A stretch of 64,000 nucleotides of DNA from Gammaproteobacteria bacterium (GTDB taxonomy: Bacteria; Pseudomonadota; Gammaproteobacteria; JAJPIJ01): assembly GCA_021324815.1 (NCBI GenBank), contig JAJPIJ010000013.1:1-64000 (forward strand), given 5' to 3'. Shown in pieces: positions 12,842 through 53,766 of this stretch. The notes below the pieces were generated by a model. That model did no database searches and was not told where the DNA came from. It saw only the letters and a list, made by a program, of their open reading frames with translations. Each line of letters opens with the position of its first letter. Position 1 is the first letter of the stretch. Position numbers and translations under genes: made by a program.

Positions 12842-12862
12842 GCGCGCGCCGGCGCGGCGGCC

Positions 12863-14021: not shown

Positions 14022-14074
14022 CAAAGGTGGATTTCAACTTGACCGGTCAACGGCCAGTTAAAATTGCGGCGCAA

Positions 14075-32767: not shown

Positions 32768-33421
32768 TTAGGAAACACTGATGTGATCCTCGACGGCCAC
32801 GACGCCGGGCACCGACCACGCCGCTCTTCTCGCGGCCTCGCGCTCGGGCCAGCTGTGCACCCGGCCGCGGAGGGTGACCCTGCCGTCGGTCACGTCGATG
32901 ACGACGCCGCCGGCCTCGAGATCGGCGGCGCGCTCGAAGGCGGCGCGGATTTTGGCGCGCACGTCGGTGACGGTGACGCGCGGCCGGATCTGGATGTTGT
33001 TGATCACCGCCTTCACGCCGCCGAGCCTGCGCACGTCATTCTCCGCCGCCGCGCGCTGGTATTCGTATTCTACCTCGCCCGACAGCGTGATTACGCCGTG
33101 TTCCACCTTGACGGACGGCATGGTGGTCTGGGACAGCGAAATGTCCCAGCCCAGGATCTTGACCGCGCGCGCGGCGATTTCGTCGTCCGCCGTTTTTTTA
33201 TGGGGTGGGAGGCGCACCTCGAGTTCCTGGGCCAGCGCCTTCACCCCCCTCACACGTCGCACGATTTGCTCGGCGGCGCATTTCTCGGCGAAGCTTTCGA
33301 CGTGGCCGGTCAGGGTGACGACGCCGCCGTTCGCGCTGACGCCGATGTGGGCGGCGTTCACGCTCGGGTCGAGCTCCAGTTCGTCGATGACGCGCTGCTG
33401 CAGATCCAGGTCTTCCGACAT
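32768..33421 (-). CDS. Triple BON-domain protein
   Basis: A 217-residue protein made of three consecutive BON domains (about residues 8-75, 80-147 and 150-216), each with the GVxTLxGxV strand (GVVTLTGHV, GVITLSGEV, GRVTLRGRV). There is no signal peptide, so it is likely cytoplasmic. BON domains bind membranes or ligands in OsmY-like stress proteins. GGAG precedes ATG 33421. It is the first gene of the sulfur operon, with a perfect FNR box 57 bases upstream. Confidence 0.88.
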   Translation of the reverse strand: MSEDLDLQQRVIDELELDPSVNAAHIGVSANGGVVTLTGHVESFAEKCAAEQIVRRVRGVKALAQELEVRLPPHKKTADDEIAARAVKILGWDISLSQTTMPSVKVEHGVITLSGEVEYEYQRAAAENDVRRLGGVKAVINNIQIRPRVTVTDVRAKIRAAFERAADLEAGGVVIDVTDGRVTLRGRVHSWPEREAARRAAWSVPGVVAVEDHISVS

Positions 33422-33477
33422 GCTCGTTCTCCGCGGGTTCCTTTTATAAAGCATCGCGCGAAAGCGCCGGGGACGCC

Positions 33478-33491
33478 TTGATCCAGATCAA
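33478..33491 (-). promoter_or_regulatory. FNR/ANR box upstream of the BON-sulfur operon
   Basis: TTGATCCAGATCAA is a perfect match to the FNR consensus TTGAT-N4-ATCAA. It lies in the 99-base spacer between the host-attachment gene stop and the BON start. A TATAAA hexamer (33443-33448, minus strand) follows 29 bp later. That gap is longer than the 21-22 bp of an ideal class II site, so the exact promoter geometry is uncertain. Confidence 0.8.
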
Positions 33492-33520
33492 GGAAGGCGC
33501 GGCCGCGCGCTTCGCTTGAT

Positions 33521-33970
33521 CTACTTCTTCAGAACAGGAAGATGCTCCGCCAATTCCTCCAGCGGCAGCTTGTTCAGATCCTTGGCGATTGCCGCCTTCA
33601 CCTTCTTTTCCGCCGCCGCGCTCAGGTGCCGGCGCAGTTCGCCCAGGGCATGGGGCGGCGCGAAAAGGATCAGGGCATCGTATGATTTTTGGGCGCCGGC
33701 GTCGTTGAGACGGGTCGCGACACGCCTGAGAAAGGCATCCATGTTCTTGCGATGAAGGTCTTGGCGCGGCTGTATGGCGTGGCGGGTGACGTCCCGGCTC
33801 TCCTGGACCCGGCCGGGCCGATCCGAGCCGAGTTCACGCGACGGCAGGTGGGTCTCGGGGGCTGCCAGCTGCAGGATCACCTCGAAGCCGCGATCCTCCG
33901 CCCTGCGCCTGACGATGCGCGCCCGGCTGCCGTCCGCCATGACAATCCACGTGGTTTGCTGTCGCGCCAT
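33521..33970 (-). CDS. Host attachment family protein
   Basis: A 149-residue soluble protein. It begins WIVMADGSRARIVRR and has the ALILFAPPHALGELRRHL core and a C-terminal KDLNKLPLEELAEHL, typical of the family annotated as required for attachment to host cells. In free-living bacteria the biochemical role is unknown. GGAGGGAAATTT precedes ATG 33970. A class II-type FNR promoter lies upstream, with its -10 AATAAT at 34029-34034, 21 bp from the box at 34056. Confidence 0.85.
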   Translation of the reverse strand: MARQQTTWIVMADGSRARIVRRRAEDRGFEVILQLAAPETHLPSRELGSDRPGRVQESRDVTRHAIQPRQDLHRKNMDAFLRRVATRLNDAGAQKSYDALILFAPPHALGELRRHLSAAAEKKVKAAIAKDLNKLPLEELAEHLPVLKK

Positions 33971-34055
33971 AAATTTCCCTCCATCGCTCATACGACCCGT
34001 GACGCACGCCGGCGACTCCCAGGCCGCCATTATTTATCCGGCCCGCATCCGTCAC

Positions 34056-34069
34056 TTGATCTGGATCAA
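34056..34069. promoter_or_regulatory. FNR/ANR box between host-attachment and phasin genes
   Basis: TTGATCTGGATCAA is a perfect FNR palindrome in the divergent spacer. On the minus strand a good -10 (AATAAT, 34029-34034) sits 21 bp away, near the ideal class II geometry. On the plus strand a weaker TATGAC (34097-34102) lies 27 bp away. It could therefore control both the host-attachment gene and phasin-phaC. Confidence 0.85.
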
Positions 34070-34207
34070 TGTGGAACACCCGGCGCCATGATTGACTATG
34101 ACATGACTTCCCGTGCCCAGGAAAGCCGGACGTGGCGCGCCGGGAGCGCGGGCGGCGTGCGCAATTGATGATTGATGCACCTGCATTCAATCGAGGAGCG
34201 ATGCACG

Positions 34208-34756
34208 ATGAAAGCCAACATGCCTTTTTTCAACCACTACCGCGGCGGCTTGCGGGTCATGCTCGAGACGATGAAACTCCCGCTGATGGAGGCAAAACGC
34301 CTCCACGCCCGCCAATTGAAGACCCTCACGGAGGCGCTGTCGGATTACGAGGCGGGGTTGAAACAGATCGCCGACGCCGCCACCGTGGAGGAATTGATCG
34401 GGATTCAGGCCGAGCTGGCGCGCGCCCTGGCCAGGGAAGCGCTGCTTTACTGGAGCGGGTTTTGCGAAACCTCGGAGCAGGGTCCGCTGGGCGCCCTCAT
34501 GCGATTGCAGGGCAAGATCATGCAGACGGGCGAGGGCTTCCGGGACATGATGGGAATGACGCCGGGCGCCCTGGAGCCGCTGATGTCGTTGTGGAAATCG
34601 GCGGCCGATATCTTCTGCGATGCCTGCGCCATCACCTCCAGGGCGGCGGCGGACGCCGCGCGCCTGGCGACCGACCAGGCGGAACTTGCCACCCTGGCCG
34701 TTCCGGAGGAGGGCGCAACCAGGGAAGGCAGGCGCGGCAAGGCCAGGGCGGCGTGA
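34208..34756 (+). CDS. Phasin family protein
   Basis: A 182-residue amphipathic helical protein lacking signal peptide and membrane spans, beginning FFNHYRGGLRVMLETMKLPLMEAKRLHARQL. The helix-rich pattern and its position 6 bases before phaC identify it as a granule-associated phasin-like protein. GAGGAG precedes ATG 34208. It probably coats polyhydroxyalkanoate granules and moderates PhaC activity. Confidence 0.85.
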   Translation: MKANMPFFNHYRGGLRVMLETMKLPLMEAKRLHARQLKTLTEALSDYEAGLKQIADAATVEELIGIQAELARALAREALLYWSGFCETSEQGPLGALMRLQGKIMQTGEGFRDMMGMTPGALEPLMSLWKSAADIFCDACAITSRAAADAARLATDQAELATLAVPEEGATREGRRGKARAA

Positions 34757-34762
34757 TTCCCC

Positions 34763-36616
34763 ATGCCTGAAACGCGGGAGGCAAAGGTCCGTTCCCTGGC
34801 GCGGGAGACGCCCCCCGCAGCAGGCGTTGCACCGCCTCCCGCCCCTCCGAGGGACATCATCAACCTCTTCGAGGCGCTGCCCGAACCCACCAACGAGGAG
34901 GCGCGCCAGCATGACGCGCTGCTGAACGCCGCGCTGGGGCGGCTGACGCAGGGCATCTCACCCCATGCCCTGATGCTGGCGTGGCTGGACTGGTTCGCCC
35001 ACCTGACCACGTCGCCCGGCAAGCAGATGGAGCTGGTGCAGAAGGCCGCGCGAAAAGTAACGCGCCTGGCCCTGTACATGAGTTCCGCCCTTCTCCGCCA
35101 CTGCCCGGAATGCATCGAGCCGCTGCCGCAGGATCACCGTTTTGATCATCCCGACTGGAAGAACTGGCCCTTCAACCTGATTTACCAGTCATTCCTGCTC
35201 ACCCAGCAATGGTGGTGGAACGCCACCACGGAGGTGCGCGGCGTGACCCGGCACCACGAAGACGTGGTCGCCTTCACGGCGCGCCAGTGGCTGGACATGT
35301 TTTCACCGTCCAATTTTCTGCCGACCAACCCGCAGGTGCTGCATGAAACCGCACGCACCGCCGGCATGAACCTCGTGCGCGGCGGACGGAACCTGTGGGA
35401 GGACATGCTGCGGCTGATCGCCAACCGGCCGCCCGCGGGAACCGAGGCGTTCAAGGCCGGCGTGAACCTCGCCGTCACGCCCGGGAAGGTCATCTACCGC
35501 AACCGGCTGATCGAGCTGATCCAATACGCGCCCACCACCGCGGAGGTGCATCCGGAGCCCGTGCTCATCGTGCCCTCCTGGATCATGAAGTACTACATCC
35601 TCGACCTCTCGCCGGACAATTCGCTGGTCCGCCACCTGGTGGACAACGGCCACACGGTGTTCATGATCTCCTGGAAAAACCCCGTCGCCGAGGATCGCGA
35701 TCTGGGCCTCGACAATTATCTGGCGCAGGGCATACGCGCCGCCATCGACACGGTCGCGAAGGTGATGCCCGGGCGCCGGCTCCACGCGCTCGGTTACTGC
35801 CTGGGCGGCACGCTGCTGGCGATATCCGCGGCGGTGCTGGCGCGCGAAAATGACCGCCGCCTCGCCAGCCTCACGCTGCTGGCCTCGGAACTCGATTTCA
35901 CCGAACCCGGCGAACTCGGGCTGTTCATCGATGAGAGCCAGATCGCCTTTCTCGACGACATCATGTGGACGCGCGGCTATCTCGACGGCAAGGAAATGAG
36001 CGGGGCGTTCGCGATGCTCAACTCCAAGGACCTGGTGTGGTCGAAAATGACGCATGACTACCTGATGGGGGCGCGCCGGCCGCTGACCGATCTCATGGCC
36101 TGGAACGCCGACGCGACGCGCCTGCCCTACCGCATGCATAGTGAATACCTGCGCAAGCTCTATCTCGGCAACGAGCTGGCCGAGGGACGCTATGAGGTCG
36201 AGGGCCGGCCGGTGGCGCTGACCGACATCCGCCTGCCCCTGTTCGTGGTGGCCACCGAGCGCGACCATGTGTCGCCGTGGCGCTCGGTATTCAAGGTGCA
36301 CCTGCTGACCGACACCGAGATCACGTTCGCGCTGACCACCGGCGGCCACAACGTCGGCATCGTCAATCCGCCCGTCACGCCCGTCGTCCCGGGTCGCGGT
36401 CATCGCATCGCCACCCGCGCGCACGAGGAGAAATACACCGATCCCGATCTTTGGTTCGAGCGGGCCCGCTGGTGCGAGGGGTCATGGTGGCCGGCCTGGC
36501 TGTCGTGGCTCAAGCGGCATTCCGGCGCGCCCGTGGCCCCGCCGGCGATGGGCGCGCCGGAGGCCGGCCTGCCGCCGCTATACGACGCTCCCGGCCGCTT
36601 TGTCCTCGCCCCCTAA
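34763..36616 (+). CDS. phaC: Poly(3-hydroxyalkanoate) synthase, class I
   Basis: A 617-residue synthase. It has an N-terminal domain with FNLIYQSFLLTQQWWW and PSNFLPTNP, the lipase-like box GYCLGGT with catalytic Cys, the catalytic Asp in ATERDHVSPW and the His in GGHNVGIVNPP. Length and single-gene format (no phaE or phaR) fit class I. It polymerises hydroxyacyl-CoA to PHA granules. It pairs with the phasin gene under the FNR box at 34056. Confidence 0.95.
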   Translation: MPETREAKVRSLARETPPAAGVAPPPAPPRDIINLFEALPEPTNEEARQHDALLNAALGRLTQGISPHALMLAWLDWFAHLTTSPGKQMELVQKAARKVTRLALYMSSALLRHCPECIEPLPQDHRFDHPDWKNWPFNLIYQSFLLTQQWWWNATTEVRGVTRHHEDVVAFTARQWLDMFSPSNFLPTNPQVLHETARTAGMNLVRGGRNLWEDMLRLIANRPPAGTEAFKAGVNLAVTPGKVIYRNRLIELIQYAPTTAEVHPEPVLIVPSWIMKYYILDLSPDNSLVRHLVDNGHTVFMISWKNPVAEDRDLGLDNYLAQGIRAAIDTVAKVMPGRRLHALGYCLGGTLLAISAAVLARENDRRLASLTLLASELDFTEPGELGLFIDESQIAFLDDIMWTRGYLDGKEMSGAFAMLNSKDLVWSKMTHDYLMGARRPLTDLMAWNADATRLPYRMHSEYLRKLYLGNELAEGRYEVEGRPVALTDIRLPLFVVATERDHVSPWRSVFKVHLLTDTEITFALTTGGHNVGIVNPPVTPVVPGRGHRIATRAHEEKYTDPDLWFERARWCEGSWWPAWLSWLKRHSGAPVAPPAMGAPEAGLPPLYDAPGRFVLAP

Positions 36617-36696: not shown

Positions 36697-38136
36697 ATGA
36701 AATCCACTTTACAGATTATCTCGAAGGCGGGTCAATACATCTGGCTGGCGGTCATGGCCATGGTATTGCTGTGGAGCAACTCCGCAGACGCCGTGCCCAG
36801 CTTCGCCCGCCAGACGGGCATGGCCTGTGCCGCCTGCCATACCGTATTTCCCGAACTCACGCCCTTTGGCAGGCAATTCAAGCTGAATGGCTATGTCATA
36901 TCCAATCTCAAAACCATCAAGGACATTACGTTAAACAAGGAAGACATTCTGGAACTCAACGCGATGCCGCCGATCTCCTTCATGTTCCAGACGTCGGTGA
37001 CGAGCACGAACAAGGCCCTGCCTGATGCCAACATCCCCGGCCACTTGGCGCAGGATGGAACATTCGAATTTCCGCAGCAGGCGAGCATCTTCTTTGCCGG
37101 GGCGATTTCCCCGAAGATCGGAGCATTCGTACAGGCCACCTATAGTAGCGCGAGTGGAACCTTCGGCTTCGACAACACGGACCTCCGATTCGCCGACAAC
37201 CTGTCCAACGAGAACCGGGATTTCGTCTACGGAATAACGTTGAACAACAACCCGACGGTACAGGATGTCTGGAACAGCACGCCCGCATGGGGCTTCCCGT
37301 TTGAAGGTCCCGATGCGGCGCCGACGCCTGCCGCGGCCACCCGCATTGATGGCTCACTGGCCCAGAATGTCGGCGGCGCCAGCGCCTATCTGTGGTGGAA
37401 CAACGCCTTATATGCTGAAGCGGGCGTGTACCGCACCTCGCCCCAGGGATTCCAGAACGGCACTACCGGTGGCAATGGGCCGATTGACAGCAGCGCCGTA
37501 GATCCAATGAATGGCGTCGCTCCCTATTGGCGGCTCGCCTACCAAGCGCAATGGGATCGCCATTCTCTCGAGGTGGGGACTTTCGGGCTTTACGAGGAAG
37601 TGTTTCCGACACATTTGAATCCTGCTCCGCTGGTCCAGGTGGGGGCCAATGGCCCGACAGACAATTTCACCGACGTAGCCGCGGATGCGCAGTATCAGTT
37701 CATCGGTGACGAACATATTTTTACCGTCCTGACGAGCTATATCCATGAGGATCAGGACCTCCATGGCAGCGTCAACAGCGCCATCATCAACGGCCTCACA
37801 CCGCCCAATTCCCACGATACGCTGGAGACCTTCAAGATCACCGGTAATTATTATTACCATCGCAAGTACGGGCTCTCGCTCGGCTACGTCAACACCTGGG
37901 GAACAACCGATACTGCGCTTTATGCGCCGGCGCCGGTGACCGGCAGCAACAACGGCAGTCCTGACAGCGATTATTTCATCGCCCAAGCCACCTATGTGCC
38001 GTGGCTGAACACGAAGTTCGTACTGCAATATACCGCCTACAACAAATTCAACGGCGCCAGTTCGAATTATGATGGCTCGGGGCGGAGCGCGTCGGACAAC
38101 AATACCCTGTATTTCCTGGGCTGGTTCAATTTCTAG
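36697..38136 (+). CDS. Cyc2-like outer-membrane monohaem cytochrome-porin
   Basis: A 479-residue protein with a signal peptide (to about residue 32), a single haem site C44-A-A-C47-H48 inside PSFARQTGMACAACHTVFPE, then LTPFGRQFKLNGY. About 420 residues follow of alternating aromatic-rich strands typical of a beta barrel, ending GWFNF with a terminal Phe. Haem followed by porin is the layout of Cyc2, the outer-membrane iron oxidase of Acidithiobacillus and neutrophilic iron oxidisers. Related cytochromes with this N-terminus lack proven function. GGAGG precedes ATG 36697. A dihaem c4 gene follows. Confidence 0.8.
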   Translation: MKSTLQIISKAGQYIWLAVMAMVLLWSNSADAVPSFARQTGMACAACHTVFPELTPFGRQFKLNGYVISNLKTIKDITLNKEDILELNAMPPISFMFQTSVTSTNKALPDANIPGHLAQDGTFEFPQQASIFFAGAISPKIGAFVQATYSSASGTFGFDNTDLRFADNLSNENRDFVYGITLNNNPTVQDVWNSTPAWGFPFEGPDAAPTPAAATRIDGSLAQNVGGASAYLWWNNALYAEAGVYRTSPQGFQNGTTGGNGPIDSSAVDPMNGVAPYWRLAYQAQWDRHSLEVGTFGLYEEVFPTHLNPAPLVQVGANGPTDNFTDVAADAQYQFIGDEHIFTVLTSYIHEDQDLHGSVNSAIINGLTPPNSHDTLETFKITGNYYYHRKYGLSLGYVNTWGTTDTALYAPAPVTGSNNGSPDSDYFIAQATYVPWLNTKFVLQYTAYNKFNGASSNYDGSGRSASDNNTLYFLGWFNF

Positions 38137-38221
38137 CCATGTCCGGGATTCAGAGGAACGCGGCCGCGAGGGACAAAATGCCGGGGCTTTGCCCGGTCGA
38201 CAACCTTAGGGGAGTAAAACG

Positions 38222-38926
38222 ATGAACCGACTATTCTCGATGGCAGTCCTGTTCCCTCTGGTGACCACCTCCGTTCTGGCGGCGGGCCCCGAAACGCACG
38301 AAAACCAGCCAACCACGGGGGAACAGGCCGCGGCCCTCACCAAGATACAGCAGACGGCGCCCTCCGAAGAACAAATCACTCCCGAATTGAAAGACGCGGC
38401 GGCAAAGCTGGCGGCGCAGGAATGCGCCTTGTGCCATGGAAGAAGCGGACAAAGCATATCGCCCACCTTTCCCCGCCTGGCCGGCCAGCGTGCGGAGTAC
38501 ATCGAGGCGCAACTGAAGGCCTTTCGTGACGCGACCCGCAAGGATCCGGATGCGCAAGCCTACATGTGGGGGATGGCGTCGCAGTTGACCGATCCCATAA
38601 TAGAAGCCTTGGGACATTATTATGAGCAACTCAAGCCGGTGGCGCCCAATCCCGTGGATTCCAGGCAGGTGGCGGCGGGGAAGGAAATATTCGAACGGGG
38701 GATCCCGGCCCAAAACGTACCCGCATGCCAGACCTGCCACATGGCCCAGGCACAGGGCGCCGGCCTGTTTCCTCGTCTCGCCGGGCAGCACGCCGCCTAT
38801 CTCGTCAAGCAAATGAATTCATTCAAGAACGGCTTGCGCGTCAACCCGGTCATGCAACCGATCATGCAGAGTTTCACCAGTGAACAAATGGAACAGGTCG
38901 CGACCTATCTGGAATCCCTGCCTTGA
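38222..38926 (+). CDS. Dihaem c4-type cytochrome
   Basis: A 234-residue periplasmic protein with a signal peptide and two class I cytochrome domains. The haem sites are C68-A-L-C71-H72 and C169-Q-T-C172-H173. Each is followed by FPRLAGQ, the c4 signature. c4 cytochromes carry electrons to terminal oxidases. Following the Cyc2-like gene, it could be its periplasmic acceptor, as Cyc1 is in Acidithiobacillus. An extra 45-residue linker precedes the first domain. Confidence 0.92.
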   Translation: MNRLFSMAVLFPLVTTSVLAAGPETHENQPTTGEQAAALTKIQQTAPSEEQITPELKDAAAKLAAQECALCHGRSGQSISPTFPRLAGQRAEYIEAQLKAFRDATRKDPDAQAYMWGMASQLTDPIIEALGHYYEQLKPVAPNPVDSRQVAAGKEIFERGIPAQNVPACQTCHMAQAQGAGLFPRLAGQHAAYLVKQMNSFKNGLRVNPVMQPIMQSFTSEQMEQVATYLESLP

Positions 38927-38963
38927 TCCGCCGAAATAAAACGATTGCCCGGAGTCATTGCGC

Positions 38964-39566
38964 ATGAAGCCGCGACAGCACATGACCCGCCGGAAAAAAG
39001 CGGCGATTCTTGCAATGCTGGCAATCATACCGCTCGTGTGCGGGATGAGATTGGCGCTTGCCGCTCCTCCCTCCGCCGCCAGCAATCAGGAACAGCAATT
39101 GAAGACCCTGACGAAAATGGTGGAGGAACTTCTACACCGGGTCGACGCTCTGGAACAAAAATTAGGCCAGGTTGAAAAGGACCGGCAGACAGTAGAAGAC
39201 GTCGCGTCAAAGAATGCGAAAGCGCCGGCAACAGAGACAGCGGCGGTTCCGCGGCAAACCCGTCCGCCATCAGATCAGCCTCCCGGCGCCCCGCTGGCAA
39301 AGCAACCCGTCACCGCCAAGGCATCGCCGGCGGAGGGCGAGGCTGCGAAACTCACCCCCAAAGAAAGTTGGGCGCGCTTGGAGGACGGAATGACAAAGGC
39401 ACAGGTGCTGGAACTCCTCGGCCCTCCCGCCACCACGTTCAAACTCAGCGGGCAAACCGTCTGGTATTACTATTACCGGGACATCGGAACCGGCTCGGTT
39501 TTTTTCTATGACGATGGTCATGTCGCCAGCCGGCAGAAACCACCTTTTAGTGCGTGGCATTGGTAG
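38964..39566 (+). CDS. Exported coiled-coil protein with SmpA/BamE-like C-terminus
   Basis: A 200-residue product with an N-terminal signal (KKAAILAMLAIIPLVCG) and a coiled coil around residues 40-75. A proline- and alanine-rich linker follows, then a C-terminal domain SWARLEDGMTKAQVLELLGPP to FFYDDGHVA resembling the SmpA/OmlA (BamE) fold. ATG 38964 is chosen because GGAG lies 9 bases upstream. TTG 38958 is in frame. It follows the Cyc2-like and c4 genes on the same strand. Role unknown, perhaps outer-membrane assembly. Confidence 0.75.
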   Translation: MKPRQHMTRRKKAAILAMLAIIPLVCGMRLALAAPPSAASNQEQQLKTLTKMVEELLHRVDALEQKLGQVEKDRQTVEDVASKNAKAPATETAAVPRQTRPPSDQPPGAPLAKQPVTAKASPAEGEAAKLTPKESWARLEDGMTKAQVLELLGPPATTFKLSGQTVWYYYYRDIGTGSVFFYDDGHVASRQKPPFSAWHW

Positions 39567-39769: not shown

Positions 39770-40174
39770 TCAGCCGGTGCGGGATTCCGACAACACTTGT
39801 TCGACCCGTTTCAGCAGCGCCAGTTGGAAAAAGGGCTTCTCCAGGCAGTCGGCCGCCCCCGCCCGCATGGCCCGGACCGTCAGCGGGATGTCGCCGGCGG
39901 ACGTCAGCACGATGGACGGCAGATGCAGCCCCCGCGCCTGGACCTTCTCGAGCAGTTCCACGCCCGACATGCCCGGCAGCTCCTCTCCCACGATCAGCAG
40001 ATCGAAACGGGACAGATCCCCCGGCACTTCCTCCGCCGAGGCATAACTTGTTGCATCATAGCCGTGCGACCGTATGAGGGTCTGCAACGCGCCGCGAACC
40101 GATGCATCGGCATCCACCACGCCGATCAACGGTCGTCGTTCACGCTCCGGATTTTTCACGACCGACGACTTCAT
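39770..40174 (-). CDS. Degenerate stand-alone receiver (pseudo-response regulator)
   Basis: A 134-residue receiver-only protein of the FixJ branch. The fold is intact (VVDADASVRGALQTLI, LPGMSGVELLEKV, LTSAGD, CLEKPF). However, the phosphoacceptor position expected in IVD.xLPGMSG is Gly63 (IVGEELPGMSG), and the acidic pair reads DAD instead of DDD. It should not be phosphorylated in the usual way. It could sequester or tune FixL or FixJ. ATG 40174 overlaps the fnr stop (TGATG), so it is made together with FNR. Confidence 0.85.
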   Translation of the reverse strand: MKSSVVKNPERERRPLIGVVDADASVRGALQTLIRSHGYDATSYASAEEVPGDLSRFDLLIVGEELPGMSGVELLEKVQARGLHLPSIVLTSAGDIPLTVRAMRAGAADCLEKPFFQLALLKRVEQVLSESRTG

Positions 40175-40965
40175 CAATTGAGTCCCTGGGCATAGTGCTG
40201 TGACTTGCCGGCGGGGAGCGCGCCCGCGGGAACGCCCACGACTTCGCGCAGTTTTTCCAGCGACAGCAGGCGGATATGCCGGCGCTCGACCTTCAGCAGA
40301 CCGTTGACGTGGAATTGGGTGAAAATGCGGCTGACCGTCTCGACCGCCAGCGACAGAAAACTGGCCACGTCCTGCCGCGACATGTGCAGGTTGAACTCCC
40401 TGTCGGAATAGCCGCGCCTGCCGTATTGCTCCGACAGCTGCAGCAGGAACATGGCCATGCGCTGTTCCGCGTCACGCTGTGATATGAGCATGGCATGCTG
40501 CTCCTCGTGCGCCAGCTCCTCGCCGGCGATGCGCATGAATTGCCGGACGGCCGACGGCGCGCGGGCGCAGCCCTCGTCGATTTCCGCCAGCGCGAAGCGG
40601 CAGAAGCTGGTGGTCTCGAGGGCCTGCGCCGAGGACACGTGGCGCTGCTCGCCGAGCGCGTCGAGGCCCACCACGTCGCCCGACAGATAAAACCGGATCA
40701 CCTGCTCGGTGCCGTCCGAGGCGCTGATGGTGGCCTTGACCGTCCCGGAGCGGATGACGTAGAGGGCTTGCATCCTGTCCCCCTGCCGGAACAGGTACTC
40801 GCCGCGATCGATCACCCTGCCATTGTGTCCGCACGATTTTTGACTGAAGACACTCCGCCCCTGCGCGCCCTCCCCGCCGCACATGACATGCAGACTGCAC
40901 TTTTTGCATGCCGTGGAAGACTGCGCGAAGGAAACCACATTCGTCGTTGTTTGAGCCTTGGCCAT
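40174..40965 (-). CDS. fnr: FNR-type [4Fe-4S] oxygen-sensing transcription regulator
   Basis: A 263-residue CRP/FNR regulator. Cysteines C20, C23, C29 (ACKKCSLHVMC) and C122 (TTSFC) fall at the same positions as the four cluster ligands of E. coli FNR. The cyclic-nucleotide-like beta roll and the HTH recognition helix VETVSRIF with the E-x-x-S-R contacts are present. AGGAGGAGGGG precedes ATG 40965. It should bind TTGAT-N4-ATCAA boxes such as those at 33478, 34056, 46820 and 55178. The upstream region carries a FixJ-like site. Confidence 0.95.
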   Translation of the reverse strand: MAKAQTTTNVVSFAQSSTACKKCSLHVMCGGEGAQGRSVFSQKSCGHNGRVIDRGEYLFRQGDRMQALYVIRSGTVKATISASDGTEQVIRFYLSGDVVGLDALGEQRHVSSAQALETTSFCRFALAEIDEGCARAPSAVRQFMRIAGEELAHEEQHAMLISQRDAEQRMAMFLLQLSEQYGRRGYSDREFNLHMSRQDVASFLSLAVETVSRIFTQFHVNGLLKVERRHIRLLSLEKLREVVGVPAGALPAGKSQHYAQGLN

Positions 40966-41002
40966 AACCCCTCCTCCTGTCATTGAGGCTGCGTCGGGAT
41001 TA

Positions 41003-41071
41003 TTTATAGCCCCGGCTGGGGCGGGATGAATATTCGAAAATCCCCGCGGCCGGATTGCGGAAACTACGTAG
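41003..41071 (-). promoter_or_regulatory. fnr promoter with FixJ-like operator
   Basis: On the minus strand CTACGTAGTTTCC (41059-41071) closely resembles the class I FixJ site as I recall it (GTMAGTAGNTTCC), with 11 of 13 positions fitting. A TATAAA -10 lies at 41003-41008, giving a start near 40996 and centring the FixJ-like site near -69, where FixJ binds at fixK and nifA promoters. The -35 is poor, as expected for an activated promoter. The 5' leader would be about 30 bases. Confidence 0.65.
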
Positions 41072-41117
41072 AAGGGTGCGTACTGATCGGGAGGGGGCCG
41101 CCGCCCGCGGCGGGGAT

Positions 41118-41744
41118 TTATGGAAAGGATTCCTGGTTGTCGAACGACGCCATTTCATGGACCAGTTCCGCGAGCGACCTGGCCTGCATTTTCTCCATGA
41201 CCCGCGCGCGGTGGGCCTCCACGGTGCGCTCGCTCAAGCCGAGATCGAGGGCCATGACCTTGTTGGCCTTGCCGGCGACCATGCCATTCAACACCTCCCG
41301 CTCGCGCGCCGTGAGCAGCGCGAGCTTTTCCCTGAGCCTGCGCCGGCCTTCGAGGCGCTGGCGGCGTTCCTCATCCCTTTGCAGCGCCCGTTCGAGGCTG
41401 TCCAGCAGCGCCTGATCCTTGAACGGCTTCTGGAGGAAGTCGAAGGCCCCCGCCTTCATCGCCATCACCGCCATGTCCACGTCGCCGTGGCCGGTGATGA
41501 AAATGACGGGCAGGTCCAGTTGACGCTGGTTCATGTGCTCCTGAAGTTGCAGGCCGCTCATGCCCGGCATGCGCGCGTCGAGGATGATGCAACCCCCGGC
41601 GTCCGGCTGCAGCTTGTCGAGCAGCTCCGCCGCCGTGGCGCAGGGCACCGGGCGGTAGCCGACGGAACGCAGCAACATGCAGACCGCCTGCCGCACGGAG
41701 TGATCATCATCGACGACGTAAACGACCGCCTCAGAGGGCTGCAT
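41118..41744 (-). CDS. fixJ: FixJ-type response regulator
   Basis: A 208-residue protein. The N-terminal receiver has the acidic pair VVDDD, the phosphoacceptor Asp in IILDARMPGMSG and KPF. A C-terminal LuxR-type HTH follows (LTAREREVLNGMVAGKANKVMALDLGLSERTVEAHRARVMEKM, residues about 140-185). It overlaps the 3' end of fixL by 14 bases. Expected to be phosphorylated by FixL and to activate fnr through the site at 41059. Confidence 0.95.
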   Translation of the reverse strand: MQPSEAVVYVVDDDHSVRQAVCMLLRSVGYRPVPCATAAELLDKLQPDAGGCIILDARMPGMSGLQLQEHMNQRQLDLPVIFITGHGDVDMAVMAMKAGAFDFLQKPFKDQALLDSLERALQRDEERRQRLEGRRRLREKLALLTAREREVLNGMVAGKANKVMALDLGLSERTVEAHRARVMEKMQARSLAELVHEMASFDNQESFP

Positions 41745-43287
41745 CCGCAGCCTCCGTCGCCACCGGCAGGGTGAAGGAGAAGCACATGCCGCCGCCGGGA
41801 TTGGGGGCGTGCCAGAACTTGCCGCCGTGGGCGGTGATGATCGAGAGGCTGATGGGCAGCCCCAGCCCCATGCCGCCGGCCTTCGTGGTCACGAAGGGGG
41901 TGAACAGCACGTTGGCCACGGACGACGACAGGCCGGGCCCCCGATCCGCGACGTCCACCTGCACGCAGTCCGGCGCCGGGCGGTGCGTGCGCACCACGAT
42001 TTTGCGGTGTTCCGGCGCGACCATCTTCATGGCGTCCAGCGCGTTTAAGATCAGATTCATGACCACCTGCTGGATTTGCACGCTGTCTATGGTAACCCGC
42101 GGCAGACCGGCGTTCAGCTCCAGATGGATGTGGCCCTCGTTCTCGCGCACGTTGCTCATGGCCAGTTTCACTATCGAGCGCAGGCATTCGTTGAGATCGG
42201 TGGCTTCGTAGGCAATGGCGCGCTTGCGGACATAGCCGCGCATGCGGTGGATGATTTCGCCGGCCCGCTCCGCCTGCGTGGACATCTGCTCCAGCGCCTC
42301 GTGCATCTCCGGCGGCATGGCCGGCAGCTGTTCCATCATGCGCCTGATGGCCTGGGCGTAAGTGGCGATGGCGGTCAGCGGCTGGTTGATTTCGTGGGCA
42401 ATGCCTGAGGCCATCTCGCCCAGGGTGTTCAGCCGATCCACCTGCGCCAGCGCCTCGCGGTGGGCGCTGGCCTCCTGCTCCGCCAGCACCTGCGGCGTAC
42501 GGTTGATGACGTGGGCGGTGATCATCGGCCCGCGCAGCGGCGTGTCCACCAGCCCGCCGTGGAGCCCCACGTGCAGCAGCTCCCCGCCCGGCGGACGCAG
42601 GCGCAATTCAATGGCCGATCCCGCCCTGTGCATCAGCACCTTCTGGCGGAACTGCCGGAACAGCTCCTGGTCATCCGGGATGATCCAGGACTCGAACGAA
42701 CTCCCCTCGATGTCGTCGACCATGACGCCCAGCATCCGCAGCAGCGCCGCGTTGGCGTACTGCACGTGGCCTTCGCCGTCCAATGTGATGACGCCGATGG
42801 GCGCGTTTTCGATCATGAGACGCAGTTCCTGCTCGCTCACCCTGAGCGCGGCCTCCATGGCCTTTTCCTTCGAGATGTCGCGCAGGATGCCGATGAACTG
42901 GCGGCCGCCGCCGGTGTCGGGCAGTTCGCCGACGGCGAGGTAAAGCGGGAATTCCGTGCCGTCGCGGCGGCGGCCGTACACCTCGCGGCCGATGCCGATG
43001 ATATGGGCCTTGCCCGTCTTCAGGTATCTCTGCATGTAGGTGTCATGCTGATGCCGGTCCCTGTCGGTCATCAAACAGTTGAGGCTGGTGCCCACGACTT
43101 CATCGGCGCGGTAACCGAATATTTTTTCCGCCTCCGGATTGAAGCGCCGGATGATGCCGTGGGCGTCCGCGATGATCATGCCCTGCGCGGCGGCGGTGAA
43201 GATGCCGTTCAATTCGCCCTCCAACGCCCGCAGGCGTTGTTGCAGCCCCCCCGTCCCCGGCCGTCTTGTTTTCGTCGTTTTGGTCAT
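41731..43287 (-). CDS. fixL: Haem-PAS oxygen-sensor histidine kinase FixL
   Basis: A 518-residue kinase: PAS 1 (about 25-145), PAS 2 (about 150-265), then a HisKA domain with GEMASGIAHEINQPLTAI and HATPase (GLGLPISLSII). PAS 1 keeps the haem-pocket set of Bradyrhizobium FixL at identical spacing: proximal H81, R87, H95 and R101, with IIGIGR and RRRDGTEFP. It is therefore a genuine haem O2 sensor rather than a generic PAS kinase. There are no membrane spans, so it is cytosolic. Cotranscribed with fixJ. Confidence 0.94.
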   Translation of the reverse strand: MTKTTKTRRPGTGGLQQRLRALEGELNGIFTAAAQGMIIADAHGIIRRFNPEAEKIFGYRADEVVGTSLNCLMTDRDRHQHDTYMQRYLKTGKAHIIGIGREVYGRRRDGTEFPLYLAVGELPDTGGGRQFIGILRDISKEKAMEAALRVSEQELRLMIENAPIGVITLDGEGHVQYANAALLRMLGVMVDDIEGSSFESWIIPDDQELFRQFRQKVLMHRAGSAIELRLRPPGGELLHVGLHGGLVDTPLRGPMITAHVINRTPQVLAEQEASAHREALAQVDRLNTLGEMASGIAHEINQPLTAIATYAQAIRRMMEQLPAMPPEMHEALEQMSTQAERAGEIIHRMRGYVRKRAIAYEATDLNECLRSIVKLAMSNVRENEGHIHLELNAGLPRVTIDSVQIQQVVMNLILNALDAMKMVAPEHRKIVVRTHRPAPDCVQVDVADRGPGLSSSVANVLFTPFVTTKAGGMGLGLPISLSIITAHGGKFWHAPNPGGGMCFSFTLPVATEAADAAL

Positions 43288-48328: not shown

Positions 48329-48354
48329 GCATTTTCAATTAGGAGATGACATCG

Positions 48355-49785
48355 ATGACCGCCACCGCGGCCGAAACCTACAATGACAGGGTGGTCCGGC
48401 AGTTCGCCGTCATGACGATCGTGTGGGCGATCGTGGGGATGGCGGTGGGCGTCTTGATCGCGGCGCAACTGGTGTGGCCGGCGTTGAATTTCGACATCCC
48501 CTGGCTCACCTACAGCCGGCTGCGGCCGCTGCACACCAACGCGGTGATCTTCGCCTTCGGCGGCTCGGCGCTGTTCGCGACCTCGTATTACGTCGTGCAG
48601 CGCACCTCCCACGTGCGGCTGTTTTCGGACGGGCTGGCCGCCTTCACCTTCTGGGGCTGGCAGCTTGTCATCGTGCTGGCGGCGATCACGCTGCCGCTCG
48701 GCATCACCTCCTCCAAGGAATACGCCGAGCTCGAGTGGCCCATCGACATCCTCATCACCATCGTGTGGGTGGCCTACGCGATCGTTTTCTTCGGCACGCT
48801 GGCGAGGCGCCGCGTGCGGCACATTTACGTCGCCAACTGGTTTTACGCCTCCTACATCCTGACCATCGCCATCCTGCACGTCGTCAACAACATCGAAATC
48901 CCCGTCAGCCTGTGGAAATCCTACTCCGTGTACGCCGGCGTGCAGGACGCCATGGTGCAGTGGTGGTACGGCCACAACGCCGTGGGCTTTTTCCTCACCG
49001 CCGGCTTCCTCGGCATGATGTACTACTTCATCCCAAAGCAGGCCCAGCGGCCGGTGTATTCCTACCGGCTGTCGATCGTCCATTTCTGGTCGCTCATCTT
49101 CACCTACATCTGGGCCGGCCCGCATCACCTGCATTACACCGCGCTGCCCGAGTGGACGCAGTCGCTCGGCATGGTGATGTCGCTCATCCTGCTGGCCCCA
49201 AGCTGGGGCGGCATGATCAACGGCATCATGACGCTGTCCGGCGCCTGGCACAAACTGCGCACCGATCCGGTGCTGCGCTTCCTCATCGTCGCCGTGTCGT
49301 TCTACGGCATGTCGACGTTCGAGGGGCCGATGATGTCGATCAAGACCGTGAACGCGCTGTCGCACTACACCGACTGGACCATCGGCCACGTGCATTCCGG
49401 CGCGCTGGGGTGGGTGGCGATGATCTCGCTCGGCGCCATGTATTACCTGATCCCGCGGCTGTTCGGGCGCGCCATATACAGCGTCCACCTGATTGAAATC
49501 CACTTCTGGACCTCGACCATCGGCATCGTGCTGTACATCGCCTCCATGTGGGCGGCGGGGGTCATGGAGGGGTTGATGTGGCGCGCGGTCAACGACGACG
49601 GCACGCTCAGCTACAGCTTCATCGAGGTGGTCGAGGCCACGCATCCGTTCTACCTCGTGCGCCTGCTGGGCGGCCTGCTGTTTCTCGGCGGCACGCTGAT
49701 CATGGCCTGGAACCTCTGGCGCACGGTCGCGGGCGCCAAACCGGCGGAGGCGGCCGTCGTGCCGCTCCCCGCCCTGGCGCATTGA
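48355..49785 (+). CDS. ccoN: cbb3-type cytochrome c oxidase subunit I
   Basis: A 476-residue integral subunit holding low-spin haem b and the haem b3-CuB centre. [34 protein letters not shown] (CuB His) and [13 protein letters not shown] are visible, as is the [11 protein letters not shown] block. ATG 48355 is preferred because AGGAG stands 9 bases upstream. The ATG at 48346 directly abuts that site. It reduces O2 with high affinity at the end of the respiratory chain. Confidence 0.97.
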
Positions 49786-49796
49786 GGAGAACCGGC

Positions 49797-50411
49797 ATGG
49801 CGCTCACGCATGACAAGATCGAAAGAAACGCCGGCTTGCTGGTGGTGCTGATCATCCTGCTGGTCAGCGTCGGCGGGCTGGTGCAGATCGTCCCCCTGTT
49901 CTTCATGCACTCGACCACCGAGCCCGTCGCGGGATTGAAGCCCTACACGCCGCTGCAACTCGCCGGCCGCGACATTTACGTGCGCGAGGGCTGCTACGTC
50001 TGCCACTCTCAGATGATCCGGCCGTTCCGCGCGGAAACGGAGCGCTACGGCCACTATTCACTGGCGGGGGAATTCGTCTATGACCATCCCTTCCAATGGG
50101 GCTCGAAACGCACCGGACCGGACCTGGCGCGCGTGGGCGGCCGCTATTCGGATGAATGGCACCGCCTGCACTTGATGAATCCGCGCGATGTCGTGCCCAC
50201 GTCCATCATGCCGGGCTACCCGTGGCTCGCGCAAAACACCGTGGACAACAGCGACATCGAGCGCAAGCTCAGGGTGATGCGCCTGCTCGGCGTTCCCTAC
50301 GACGACAAGACCATCGCCGGGGCCCGCGACGAGTTGCGGGGCAAAACGGAGATGGACGCGTTGATCGCCTATCTGCAGGTGCTGGGCACCGCGGTCAAGA
50401 CCAGGAGATAA
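49797..50411 (+). CDS. ccoO: cbb3-type cytochrome c oxidase subunit II (monohaem)
   Basis: A 204-residue membrane-anchored cytochrome: an N-terminal span ([23 protein letters not shown]) and one haem site CYVCH in [17 protein letters not shown]. The [16 protein letters not shown] block is also present. It feeds electrons to CcoN. GAGGAG precedes ATG 49797, 11 bases after ccoN. Confidence 0.97.
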
Positions 50412-50414
50412 GAC

Positions 50415-50609
50415 ATGGACATTGCCCTGTTTCATTCCCTCTGGACCGTGCTGGTGCTGATCCTGTTCGTCGGGATTGTCGTGTGGGCGTACGGCGGATC
50501 GAGGCGCGAGGACTTTGAGGAGGCGGCGCGCATTCCGCTGGCCGACGACGAAGCGGGCATCGCCGCGGAAACCGATCGCCGGCCTGACGCGGAGAACGCG
50601 CATGGCTGA
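50415..50609 (+). CDS. ccoQ: cbb3-type oxidase subunit CcoQ
   Basis: A 64-residue single-span subunit (HSLWTVLVLILFVGIVVWAYG) with the family motif SRREDFEEAARIPL. It stabilises the CcoP interaction. It lies 3 bases after ccoO, and its last codons overlap the start of ccoP. Confidence 0.94.
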   Translation: MDIALFHSLWTVLVLILFVGIVVWAYGGSRREDFEEAARIPLADDEAGIAAETDRRPDAENAHG

Positions 50610-51516
50610 TTTCTTCAATTCATTCTGGGGCGTCGCCGTCGCGACGGTCACCATCGCCAGCATCGCCGGCCTGATTTGCTTCGCCATCGTGCAATCCCGC
50701 GGCCGCCGGCCGCCGGGCGCCGGGACCGAAACCATGGGACATACGTGGGACGGGGACCTGGAGGAATACAACAACCCGCTGCCGCGGTGGTGGCTCAATC
50801 TGTACTATCTCTCGCTGGCCTTCGGGATCGGCTATCTGCTGCTGTACCCCGGCCTCGGCGCCTACCAGGGCTACAAGCACTGGAGCCAGAACGGCCAGTA
50901 CGAGGAGGAGGTCAAAAAGGCCCGTGACACCTACGGACCGCTCTACGACCGGTTCCTGCATCAGGACATGAAGGCGCTGGCGAAGGACCCGGAGGCGCAT
51001 AAGATCGGCGCGCGCCTGTTCGCGACCTATTGCACGGTCTGCCACGGCTCCGATGCCCGCGGCGCGCGGGGATTCCCCAATCTCACCGATCATGACTGGC
51101 TGTACGGCGGCGAGCCCGAGCAGATCAAGGAGTCCATCACCAACGGGCGCCAGGGCGGCATGCCGCCCTGGGGCGAGGTGCTCAAGAAGGAGGAGATCGC
51201 GGAGGCGGCGCAATATGTGCTCAGTTTCAGCGGCCGCCAGACGGATGCCGGCATGGCGTCGAGGGGCAAGGAGATATTCGCCAAGAACTGCGCCGTCTGC
51301 CACGGACAGGACGCCAAGGGCAACCCGCAAATCGGCGCGCCGAATCTCACGGATGACATCTGGCTTTACGGCGGCTCGAAAGAGCGCATCATCGAATCCA
51401 TCACCTTTGGCCGCAGCGGCCAGATGCCCGCGCACAAGAATTTCCTGGACGAGGCGAAAATTTATCTGCTGGCGGCCTACATCTACGGGTTGTCGAATGC
51501 AGACGGCGGCAAATGA
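50602..51516 (+). CDS. ccoP: cbb3-type oxidase dihaem subunit III
   Basis: A 304-residue subunit. N-terminal span(s) are followed by HTWDGDLEEYNNPLPRWW, the CcoP signature, and two cytochrome c domains with haem sites CTVCH and CAVCH, each followed by a P.LTD segment. It accepts electrons from soluble cytochromes. ATG 50602 overlaps ccoQ. Confidence 0.97.
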   Translation: MADFFNSFWGVAVATVTIASIAGLICFAIVQSRGRRPPGAGTETMGHTWDGDLEEYNNPLPRWWLNLYYLSLAFGIGYLLLYPGLGAYQGYKHWSQNGQYEEEVKKARDTYGPLYDRFLHQDMKALAKDPEAHKIGARLFATYCTVCHGSDARGARGFPNLTDHDWLYGGEPEQIKESITNGRQGGMPPWGEVLKKEEIAEAAQYVLSFSGRQTDAGMASRGKEIFAKNCAVCHGQDAKGNPQIGAPNLTDDIWLYGGSKERIIESITFGRSGQMPAHKNFLDEAKIYLLAAYIYGLSNADGGK

Positions 51517-51567
51517 AATCCCGCCGAACGCGCGGCCGGCCACCGGCAATCCAGCGAGGTCCCGAAT

Positions 51568-51861
51568 TTGAAGCTCATCGAGGCAGGCAGATACGTCCCC
51601 GTGCCGCAACGCGTCATCGCGGTGCTGTGGATTTCATTCCTGATGGCCGGCGCGGCGACGATGGTTTTTTTCGCCGCCATCGATCCCATGCAGCTCAAAA
51701 ACTGCGTGGACTTCCCCGAGGTCGGCCGCACCGCCGCCTACAGCATCGGCTTCCTGCTGTTCTGGCTGCTGACCGCCGCCTCCAGCCTGTTCACCACGCT
51801 GCTGCTCTATCCCGGCGCTCCCGCGAACGCCCCGGACAATTCAAGCCGCCCCTCGCGCTGA
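51568..51861 (+). CDS. Small two-span membrane protein between ccoP and ccoG
   Basis: A 97-residue protein with two hydrophobic segments (VIAVLWISFLMAGAATMVFF and YSIGFLLFWLLTAASSLFTT). The start is TTG 51568, with GAGG 8 bases upstream. Its 3' end comes within 6 bases of the ccoG start. Similar small proteins occur beside cbb3 genes in other gammaproteobacteria. Function unknown. Confidence 0.75.
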   Translation: MKLIEAGRYVPVPQRVIAVLWISFLMAGAATMVFFAAIDPMQLKNCVDFPEVGRTAAYSIGFLLFWLLTAASSLFTTLLLYPGAPANAPDNSSRPSR

Positions 51862-51866
51862 TCCCC

Positions 51867-53258
51867 ATGCTCGCGCCCGCGACGCCGGCTGGCGATGAAG
51901 TCCAGCAATCGCTGTATGCGAAACGGCAGAAAATCTATCCGCGCGAGGTGCACGGCCTGTTTGCCGTGCTGCGGATCAGCGCCGTCCTGACGCTGCTCGG
52001 CATCTTCTACGGCCTGCCGTGGCTGCGCTGGAATGGTCATCAGGCCGTCCTCTTCGATCTGCCGGCCCGCAAATTCCATCTGTTCGGCCTCACCCTGTGG
52101 CCGCAGGATTTCATCCTGCTGGCGGCGCTTTTGATCATCGCGGCGCTGGGGTTGTTCTTTTTCACGGCGCTGGCCGGGCGCCTGTGGTGCGGCTACGCCT
52201 GCCCGCAGACGGTGTGGACGGAGGTGTTCCTGTGGATGGAACACGCCCTGGAGGGCGACCGCCTGCAACAGATGAAGCTCGACAAGTCGCCGATGACCTG
52301 GCGCAAGTTCCGCATCAAGGCCTCCAAGCACGCGCTGTGGCTCGCCTTCTCCGCCTTCACCGGCTTCACCTTCGTCGCCTACTTCACGCCCGTGGCGGAC
52401 CTGCTTCACCGGCTCGTCACGCTGGACCTGGGGCCGTGGGAGACCTTCTGGCTCGTGTTCTACGGCTTCGCCACCTACGGCAACGCCGGCTGGATGCGCG
52501 AGCAGGTGTGCCTGTACATGTGTCCGTACGCCCGCTTCCAGAGCGCGATGTTCGACGACAGCACGCTGATCATCTCCTACGACGACAAGCGCGGCGAGCC
52601 GCGGGGCTCGCGCAAGCGCGGCACCGACAGCCTGCGCGCGGGGCTGGGCGACTGCATCGATTGCAGCATGTGCGTCCAGGTCTGCCCCACCGGCATCGAC
52701 ATTCGCAAGGGTTTGCAATATGAGTGCATCGGCTGCGCCGCCTGCATCGACGCCTGCAACGACGTCATGGACAAAATGGGCTACGCGCCGGGGCTGATCC
52801 GCTACACCACCCACAACGCCCTGCGCGGCAGACCATCCTCCATTCTCCGCCCGCGCCTGTTCGTCTACGGCGGCCTGCTGTCCGCCGCGATCGCCGCGTT
52901 TGCGTGGATACTCCTCGCGCGCGTGCCGCTCGAGCTGGAAGTGATGCATGATCGCAACCGCCTCTACCGCGAAACCGACGCGGGCCTCATCGAGAATGTC
53001 TATACGCTCGACATCGTCAACATGGATGACAGGAGACACGCCTACACCCTGCGCGCCGAGGGCATCGAGGGACTCATCGTCGAGACCGACCCTCCGGAAA
53101 TCGAGGCCGACGCGGGCGAAATGAAGAAAATACCCATGCGCCTGCGCGCCGATGGCGCCCGCTTGTCCGGCCGCAGCAACAAGGTGAGATTGTTGCTGAC
53201 GGCGAGGGATGACCCGCGCCTGACGGCTTCCGAGGAAACGAGATTCCTGGGCCCCTGA
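51867..53258 (+). CDS. ccoG: cbb3 oxidase accessory ferredoxin-type protein CcoG (FixG/RdxA)
   Basis: A 463-residue membrane protein thought to reduce Cu(II) for oxidase assembly. It has several spans, a membrane-side CGYACPQTVW, and two [4Fe-4S] motifs: CIDCSMCVQVCPTGIDIR and CIGCAACIDACN. A C-terminal periplasmic Ig-like domain follows. ATG 51867 is used, and upstream in-frame DNA belongs to the small membrane-protein gene. Confidence 0.95.
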   Translation: MLAPATPAGDEVQQSLYAKRQKIYPREVHGLFAVLRISAVLTLLGIFYGLPWLRWNGHQAVLFDLPARKFHLFGLTLWPQDFILLAALLIIAALGLFFFTALAGRLWCGYACPQTVWTEVFLWMEHALEGDRLQQMKLDKSPMTWRKFRIKASKHALWLAFSAFTGFTFVAYFTPVADLLHRLVTLDLGPWETFWLVFYGFATYGNAGWMREQVCLYMCPYARFQSAMFDDSTLIISYDDKRGEPRGSRKRGTDSLRAGLGDCIDCSMCVQVCPTGIDIRKGLQYECIGCAACIDACNDVMDKMGYAPGLIRYTTHNALRGRPSSILRPRLFVYGGLLSAAIAAFAWILLARVPLELEVMHDRNRLYRETDAGLIENVYTLDIVNMDDRRHAYTLRAEGIEGLIVETDPPEIEADAGEMKKIPMRLRADGARLSGRSNKVRLLLTARDDPRLTASEETRFLGP

Positions 53259-53274
53259 GTCCGTGGACACGCGC

Positions 53275-53766
53275 ATGAATTCCCAAACCTCCATCGCCTG
53301 GCATCGCGAACCCCTGGTCTGGCTGGTGATTCTTCCGCCGGCGGCGGCCGTGGTGGCCGGTTTGCTCACCCTGTTCCTGGCCCTGCGCACCAGCGACGGC
53401 CTGGTGGTGGATGATTATTATCACGAGGGACTGCAAATCAACCGGCTCCTGCACCGCGATGAAGAGGCCGTCCGCCTGGGGCTCGGCGCCGACATGGCGC
53501 TCGACACGCAGTCCGGTGAAGTCAGCGTCATGTTGCGGGCGCGTGATCCCGACACCCCCCTGCCGGCCACGCTCACGCTGAGACTCATGCACGCCACGCG
53601 CGCCGGTCTCGATGAACTCGTCACGCTCCGGCGGCAGGCCGACGGCCGCTACACCGGCCGCCACCATGTGCGCGCCGCGGGGCACTGGTACGCCCAGATT
53701 GAAACCTCCCGCTGGCGGCTGCTGCAATCGATCTGGATTTCCCCGCCTGGAATCCATCCCGGATGA
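53275..53766 (+). CDS. fixH: FixH family protein
   Basis: A 163-residue protein with one N-terminal span (VILPPAAAVVAGLLTLFLAL) and a periplasmic beta domain containing VVDDYYHEGLQINR and RHHVRAAGHWYAQIE, the FixH signature. It takes part in cbb3 assembly with CcoG. ATG 53275 has GGA nearby. GTG 53263 is an in-frame alternative adding four residues. Confidence 0.9.
   Translation: MNSQTSIAWHREPLVWLVILPPAAAVVAGLLTLFLALRTSDGLVVDDYYHEGLQINRLLHRDEEAVRLGLGADMALDTQSGEVSVMLRARDPDTPLPATLTLRLMHATRAGLDELVTLRRQADGRYTGRHHVRAAGHWYAQIETSRWRLLQSIWISPPGIHPG

Follow-up and report, generated by a model that had tools for sequence, protein, structure and literature searches.

A Cyc2-type porin-cytochrome unit with an apparent BamE-like partner and the relic of an older cyc2 in a gammaproteobacterium

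Introduction

A stretch of 64,000 nt from a Gammaproteobacteria bacterium (contig JAJPIJ010000013.1, positions 1 to 64,000, forward strand, assembly GCA_021324815.1; hereafter the window) carries adjacent genes for a Cyc2-type porin-cytochrome, a dihaem c4 cytochrome and a BamE-like periplasmic protein. The pairing of cyc2 with c4 is an already known kind of unit; considered here are the third gene beside such a pair and how the three genes came to lie where they do. We consider it probable (roughly 0.6) that they form an iron-oxidase unit of the Acidithiobacillus Cyc2 type, acquired as a cassette, in which electrons from Fe(II) would pass through Cyc2 and c4 to a haem-copper oxidase under low-oxygen control, with the BamE-like protein as a dedicated partner. 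What is new here is the recurrence of a BamE-like partner, together with the replacement and its relic. The features of the unit are as follows.

36697..38136, + strand: Cyc2-type porin-cytochrome, 479 aa, ATG start with GGAGG upstream (motif, homology, tree, AlphaFold2 barrel, OmpC/F fold)
36790..36816, + strand: AVPSFARQT, residues 32 to 40, the published Cyc2 motif (sequence against the definition in the cited part of PMC8406198)
36826..36840, + strand: CAACH haem c site, residues 44 to 48, with PEL (PXL) at residues 52 to 54 (invariant residues in the alignment)
38222..38926, + strand: dihaem c4-type cytochrome, Cyc1-like, 234 aa, two CXXCH (Pfam, homology to Cyc1)
38964..39566, + strand: BamE-like periplasmic protein, 200 aa from ATG, a TTG start at 38958 being possible (Pfam, AlphaFold2, recurrence behind cyc2)
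39138..39155, + strand: RVDALE, residues 59 to 64, an R-h-x-x-h-E trimerisation motif in the coiled coil (motif as given in the cited part of PMC6173795)
39605..39682, + strand: relic of an older cyc2 of the genus-mate type, 78 bp, in frame (86% identical to positions 7661-7739 of the genus-mate locus, L054, inside its cyc2)

A first-pass annotation, made from the sequence alone, had called the three genes at these positions on one strand, and the calls were confirmed.

Results

The first gene encodes a Cyc2-type porin-cytochrome

The signature of the Cyc2 family, AXPXFAR[Q/K][T/Y] with CXXCH and PXL, is given in the cited part of PMC8406198. The Cyc2 definition applied comprised this motif before CXXCH, PXL four residues after CXXCH, one haem site, at least 365 residues and a 16-stranded fused porin. 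The window protein shows all of the sequence features: the motif, the PXL spacing, exactly one CXXCH and 479 residues. Its haem-site context is FARQTGMACAACHTVFPELTP at residues 36 to 56; the single CAACH at residues 44 to 48 had been annotated correctly, and the span, given as 37 to 56, was off by one. The last residue is Phe, also as annotated. Read by eye, the N-terminus has a hydrophobic helix at residues 10 to 25 and then SADA before VPSFAR, suggestive of a signal peptide.

The AlphaFold2 model (pLDDT 89, pTM 0.87) has 16 strands of at least 9 residues after a small helical haem domain, bearing out the barrel-like remainder that had been annotated; no barrel-less fold was predicted. Among solved structures, OmpC and OmpF are closest in fold (Z 22.3, 300 aligned, 3.5 Å), and this fold, together with the C-terminal Phe, argues for a location in the outer membrane. 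In the MtrCAB, MtoAB and PioAB systems a multihaem cytochrome sits in a larger barrel, whereas the window protein has a single haem site and 16 strands, which rules out a multihaem conduit of that type.

No meaningful match was found in Pfam, NCBIfam or PDB sequence searches. A survey of 369 genomes of the class Gammaproteobacteria, in which relatives were counted at E ≤ 1e-5 and called close at E ≤ 7e-24, found relatives in 61 genomes and close ones in 28 of these; outside the 28, the match lay mostly over the N-terminal third. Since there are relatives in so many genomes and a 16-strand model, the gene is not a chance open reading frame (ORF), and the class-wide homology rules out a spurious one. 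A scan of genome contigs gave at least 595 pattern matches, at least 591 of them confirmed, and the best 80 loci were kept for analysis beside 30 class loci, 6 plasmid loci, 13 loci of the rus-operon family and 10 distant loci. Acidithiobacillus ferrianus, A. ferriphilus and A. ferrivorans served as named Cyc2 anchors among the matches listed from genome contigs. The window protein is 35% identical to A. ferrianus Cyc2 over residues 3 to 479 (E = 2e-72).

In a 140-row Cyc2 tree the window protein lies in a 17-row clade (support 99) within a 130-row family (branch support 93), and all 8 rus-operon-type rows are inside this family, as are the Cyc2s of the three anchor species. The other 10 rows sit on long branches and are tentatively taken to be other Cyc2 clusters. 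In this tree the window protein groups with Acidithiobacillus Cyc2, which fits Cluster 2 of McAllister and Keffer. The phylogeny thus keeps it inside Cyc2, and motif, length and barrel agree with the Cyc2-like identity first proposed for it. One row of the distant set (L062) gave only weak partial matches against plasmids, which yielded no named anchor for Clusters 1 and 3. In an AlphaFold2 alignment of 83 rows, R38, Q39, T40, C44, C47, H48, P52, L54, R59 and K62 are invariant in all rows, as are the barrel residues D159, R279, D326, D330 and E351.

The second gene encodes a Cyc1-like c4 cytochrome

The dihaem c4 expected from the first-pass annotation, a class I cytochrome, was recognized by Pfam, which found Cytochrom_C twice (1.7e-18). 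It is 43% identical to A. ferrianus Cyc1 over 171 residues, and a second c4 elsewhere in the same genome is 38% identical to it. Among the best 80 genome contig loci, 31 have a c4 gene directly 3' of cyc2. Five loci carry cyc2, c4, CoxA and rusticyanin in one row, namely L114, L116, L119, L130 (A. ferrianus) and L136 (A. ferrivorans), and the rusticyanins of L114 and L130 scored above the curated cut-off. In L119 and L120 the c4 behind cyc2 is in pieces with one CXXCH each, in both copies of this genome (G369).

The window unit shares with the Acidithiobacillus rus operon the motif, the single CXXCH, the 16-strand barrel, the length, the cyc2-c4 order and full-length homology, and in both the dihaem c4 lies directly downstream of cyc2. 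The unit differs in the absence of rusticyanin and in the addition of the BamE-like gene; no cox genes follow c4 in the same row, where the BamE-like gene and then the relic are found instead. The partner oxidase in the window would be cbb3, not an oxidase of the operon's own. Judged by gene content, the cyc2-cyc1 pair of the window does not form part of a rus operon.

The third gene combines a BamE domain with a coiled coil

The BamE-like protein consists, by Pfam and AlphaFold2, of a signal-like helix, a coiled coil, a Pro/Ala-rich linker and a BamE domain. The annotation as BamE-like was upheld by Pfam (32 bits, cut-off 23.2), and the NCBIfam BamE model gave 17 bits, far below its cut-off of 93. 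The domain fold resembles BamE (5d0o_E, Z 8.3, 67 aligned, 2.7 Å) and also TpgA-N in a trimeric-barrel complex (9vnj_B, Z 6.6, 73 aligned, 3.8 Å). Foldseek returned nothing under E 0.001 for this model, with BamE and OsmE at the top of its list. Since a VIA-align Z of 8 is middling, the fold assignment leans on the Pfam match too.

Compared with BamE of the Bam complex, the window protein shares the domain and the fold; the coiled coil and linker are additions, and the lipobox cysteine is absent. This was judged by eye from the lipobox rule for lipoprotein signals: PLVC misfits, and LALAA closes the signal-like stretch. A canonical BamE gene (93.8 bits) lies elsewhere in the same genome, which rules out that the canonical gene had moved here. 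The R-h-x-x-h-E motif precedes the BamE domain in 16 of 17 homologues (shuffles: mean 0.29, most 4), and mutating it destabilizes the trimeric coil of FapF, according to the cited part of PMC6173795. TpgA-N and SadB (the helper of SadA), periplasmic helpers of trimeric barrels, are described as trimers in the cited parts of PMC6604945 and PMC13082670. The comparison with these is by fold only, TpgA-N (of the TpgA/AtaA pair) being the similar one; in their case an adhesin takes the place of the haem pore as partner, and TpgA binds peptidoglycan.

The BamE-like gene recurs directly behind cyc2

A hidden Markov model (HMM) grown from the window gene was run on 9402 ORFs from about 1.9 million bases (part of the window and cyc2-containing loci, some overlapping). 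All 17 matches lie directly 3' of cyc2 or its c4, on the same strand, at -12 to 825 bp from cyc2. Nine of them (the window, L141, L144, L148 [Rubrivivax], L155, L158, L159, L164 and L176) have exactly the order cyc2-c4-bamE-like, and the other eight have no intervening c4 (L034, L036, L037, L047, L140, L161, L172 [Thiogranum] and L194 [Thiohalobacter]). The eight loci that share the window's order come from beta- and gammaproteobacteria, with L176 the most similar at 58% identity. By sample, the gene occurs in 12 of the best 80 genome contig loci, 8 of which have c4 as well, and in 3 of the 30 class loci when each is counted by its best cyc2 (4 with the second cyc2 of L047). It was absent from the 6 plasmid loci, the 13 loci of the rus-operon family and the 10 distant loci, and the window BamE-like protein had no plasmid match.

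Because the loci given to the HMM had been picked for cyc2, the 369 class genomes were also searched with the BamE-like profile first. This yielded 14 places in 13 genomes, of which 8 places in 7 genomes were strong (E ≤ 6.1e-23) and 6 weak. All seven genomes with a strong match also hold a close cyc2, for which the chance is 7e-9 given 28 such genomes. Five of the strong places follow an intact cyc2, one follows a C-terminal remnant of cyc2 and one is at a contig start. Distances between Cyc2 proteins and between BamE domains correlate over the 17 pairs (r = 0.77, none of 5000 permutations as high).

The first-pass annotation, which left the BamE-like gene outside the described pathways, was thus incomplete, the gene being a recurrent member of such units. 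Searches of the open-licence PMC literature, judged in part by titles and the opening lines of abstracts, found no description of a Cyc2-associated BamE-like partner among the papers listed, and from its recurrence the protein appears to be an undescribed partner of the Cyc2-type pore.

The unit lies where a relative has another cyc2

The locus of a genus mate (L054, genome G001) is collinear with the window at 33002-36612 (78%) and at 39781-43287 (81%). Between these flanks the genus mate carries just one cyc2, which belongs to another clade and is 36.5% identical to the window Cyc2, and no c4 or BamE-like gene is present there. The 78-bp relic matches that cyc2 with E = 6e-20 and a score of 111, compared with 39 for the best of 200 shuffles. 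The G+C content is 56.5-60% in the cassette and 64-66% in the flanks, and a comparison of the left and right cassette edges by 9-base words turned up no repeats. Given the collinear flanks and the relic, an older cyc2 was therefore displaced, leaving 78 bp, and we read the three-gene unit as an acquired cassette that replaced it. This history was invisible to the first-pass annotation, because seeing it takes a relative for comparison. Horizontal transfer of Cyc2 is already described (PMC12442345, in the part cited). Distances between Cyc2 and c4 proteins correlate over nine pairs (r = 0.92, p = 0.005).

A second case of cyc2 decay was seen at L220 (G268:C47), where the BamE-like gene stands behind the cyc2 C-terminal remnant and an RND-pump-like ORF lies further upstream.

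Neighbouring genes and genome setting

The following features flank the unit.

34056..34069, + strand: perfect FNR/FixK-type box, TTGATCTGGATCAA, upstream of the phasin-phaC-cyc2 unit; the same box is at 3842 of L054 in the genus mate
34172..34756, + strand: phasin (Pfam Phasin_2)
34763..36616, + strand: PHA synthase PhaC, ending 80 bp before cyc2 (library searches)
39770..40177, - strand: single-domain response regulator (library search)
40174..40983, - strand: Fnr/FixK-type regulator (library searches)
41118..41744, - strand: FixJ-like response regulator (library search)
41731..43287, - strand: FixL-like sensor kinase (library search)
48346..53766, + strand: cbb3 oxidase genes ccoN-O-P-G-H (Pfam COX1, FixO, FixP_N, FixG_C, FixH)

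The window has 4 perfect TTGAT-N4-ATCAA boxes, which we take to be of the FNR/FixK type, and 28 with at most two mismatches, compared with 10.9 expected. The box at 34056 may act on phasin-phaC-cyc2, and transcripts may read through from phaC into cyc2 over the 80-bp gap; promoter and terminator scans around the cyc2 unit gave chance-level results. The cbb3 genes are 8.8 kb from the unit, beyond the FixL, FixJ and Fnr genes, and four genes for subunit I of haem-copper oxidases are present in the genome. The host is probably a heterotroph, carbon fixation having been judged by a RuBisCO search only, with other routes not searched for.

Relatives of cyc2 were also seen in other settings. L055 has a NiFe hydrogenase small-subunit gene (8919-9869) near its cyc2 homologue, and a megaplasmid of the soil bacterium Caballeronia sp. 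SBC1 (L079, 4945-7962) has a HiPIP gene, a cyc2 homologue and c4. On a plasmid of A. ferrooxidans YQ-N3 (L082) a divergent cyc2 homologue adjoins a c-type cytochrome gene, and among Acidiphilium plasmids the Acidiphilium cryptum homologue has the same scores. Among the matches listed, L145 to L206 include relatives of Cyc2 that are distant from the known iron oxidizers, in Bacteroidetes, Acidobacteria, Gemmatimonadetes, Myxococcales and others. A 1769-aa ORF with 57 CXXCH in L056 matches decahaem and nanowire-type models.

Discussion

In the iron-oxidase unit that we favour, dissolved Fe(II) would enter the outer-membrane barrel from outside and pass one electron to the only haem c, which the N-terminal plug would hold at the periplasmic mouth. 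Electrons would then cross the periplasm on the dihaem c4 and reach a haem-copper oxidase, for which the nearby cbb3 is the most plausible candidate. The unit, presumably co-transcribed, would be under low-oxygen control through FixL/FixJ/Fnr. Fe(II) oxidation may thus supplement the energy supply of a probable heterotroph. Porins of the OmpC/OmpF/OprO kind are trimers, and the BamE-like protein, probably trimeric itself and placed beneath a trimeric pore, would work as a periplasmic partner that aids assembly of the haem-loaded barrel or keeps plug and c4 in register. The first-pass annotation had suggested extracellular electron uptake, including from cathodes, which is wider than the literature: in the cited part of PMC8406198, oxidation of dissolved Fe2+ by monohaem Cyc2 is the authors' prediction.

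Several observations weigh against this reading. Identity to the sequences of known iron oxidizers is only 35%, and the authors of PMC8406198 caution, in the part cited, that the function of distant Cyc2 homologues, including much of Cluster 2, is unverified. No Met or His besides H48 is conserved at 90% of the 83 rows as a second axial haem ligand, the best being M96 (68 of 83). Rusticyanin had no match in the whole window-bearing genome at E ≤ 0.001 and RuBisCO was not found there, so this is no canonical iron-oxidizing autotroph. In the c4 tree the window row sits on an unresolved fork without grouping to any clade. One strong BamE-like match (G251:C69) lacks a cyc2 within 1.4 kb. The BamE domain encoded in the window is closer to those of Thiogranum and Thiohalobacter, which lack the c4 (49 and 47%), than to those of c4-bearing sets (34-45%); because of this the three genes may differ in history, and the cassette may be a mosaic. 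Finally, cyc2 relatives also occur beside CusA/CzcA metal efflux genes (three tested) and beside NiFe hydrogenase.

The efflux genes bear on whether a Cyc2-like pore could instead serve detoxification or redox chemistry of a metal other than iron, for instance copper or silver, its haem acting on surface metal ions while c4 drains the electrons. In L039, L041 and L047 the cyc2 homologue is adjoined by RND pumps of the CusA/CzcA family (above the TIGR00914 cut-off), the last locus also having a BamE-like gene, and likewise in L045, where the pump was recognized by its similarity to that of L041. We nevertheless think this unlikely, since no such pump lies beside the window unit or in the eight same-order loci, except for an RND-type ORF seen by eye in L164, and since both the pairing with c4 and the relatives in rus operons speak for respiration. 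Outward electron transfer, in which inner cytochromes would send electrons by way of c4 and the pore to an external acceptor at low oxygen, would suit the FixL/FixJ/Fnr setting, and in L056 (G315, 7845-14179) cyc2 and c4 are followed by the multihaem ORF described above. It is nonetheless quite improbable, c4 cytochromes being commonly of high potential. The characterized Cyc2s, moreover, oxidize Fe(II), with 208 mV reported for the Mariprofundus protein (PMC8406198, in the part cited).

A further alternative keeps iron oxidation by the Cyc2-c4 pair and makes the BamE-like gene a bystander that rides along. Its absence from the rus-operon-family and plasmid loci would fit, as would the many cyc2-c4 pairs without it. 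There is only a small chance of this, in our judgement, given the adjacency in order and strand at all 17 places across distant hosts, the correlated distances and the agreement of all seven genomes in the BamE-first search. More tentatively, and as a reading that we hold to be less likely than not, we suggest beyond the iron-oxidase unit that the BamE-like protein may be the first factor dedicated to the biogenesis of a haem-plugged pore or to docking at it. Its trimeric coil would hold three BamE domains under a Cyc2 trimer, keep the haem-loaded plug aside until the barrel closes, and then seat the plug and dock c4; whole cyc2-c4-bamE-like cassettes would be swapped at one low-oxygen-controlled site.

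Heterologous Cyc2 has been made at low yield, accepted in exchange for native conditions (PMC8406198, in the part cited), and the BamE-like partner may help such expression. It also gives a handle on how a haem-bearing domain is placed in an outer-membrane barrel. The replacement with its relic offers a view, in one place, of iron-oxidation genes changing hands. Cyc2 leads the candidate markers of iron oxidation in microbes, and the presence of such a unit in a genome with neither RuBisCO nor rusticyanin broadens the range of organisms that merit testing.

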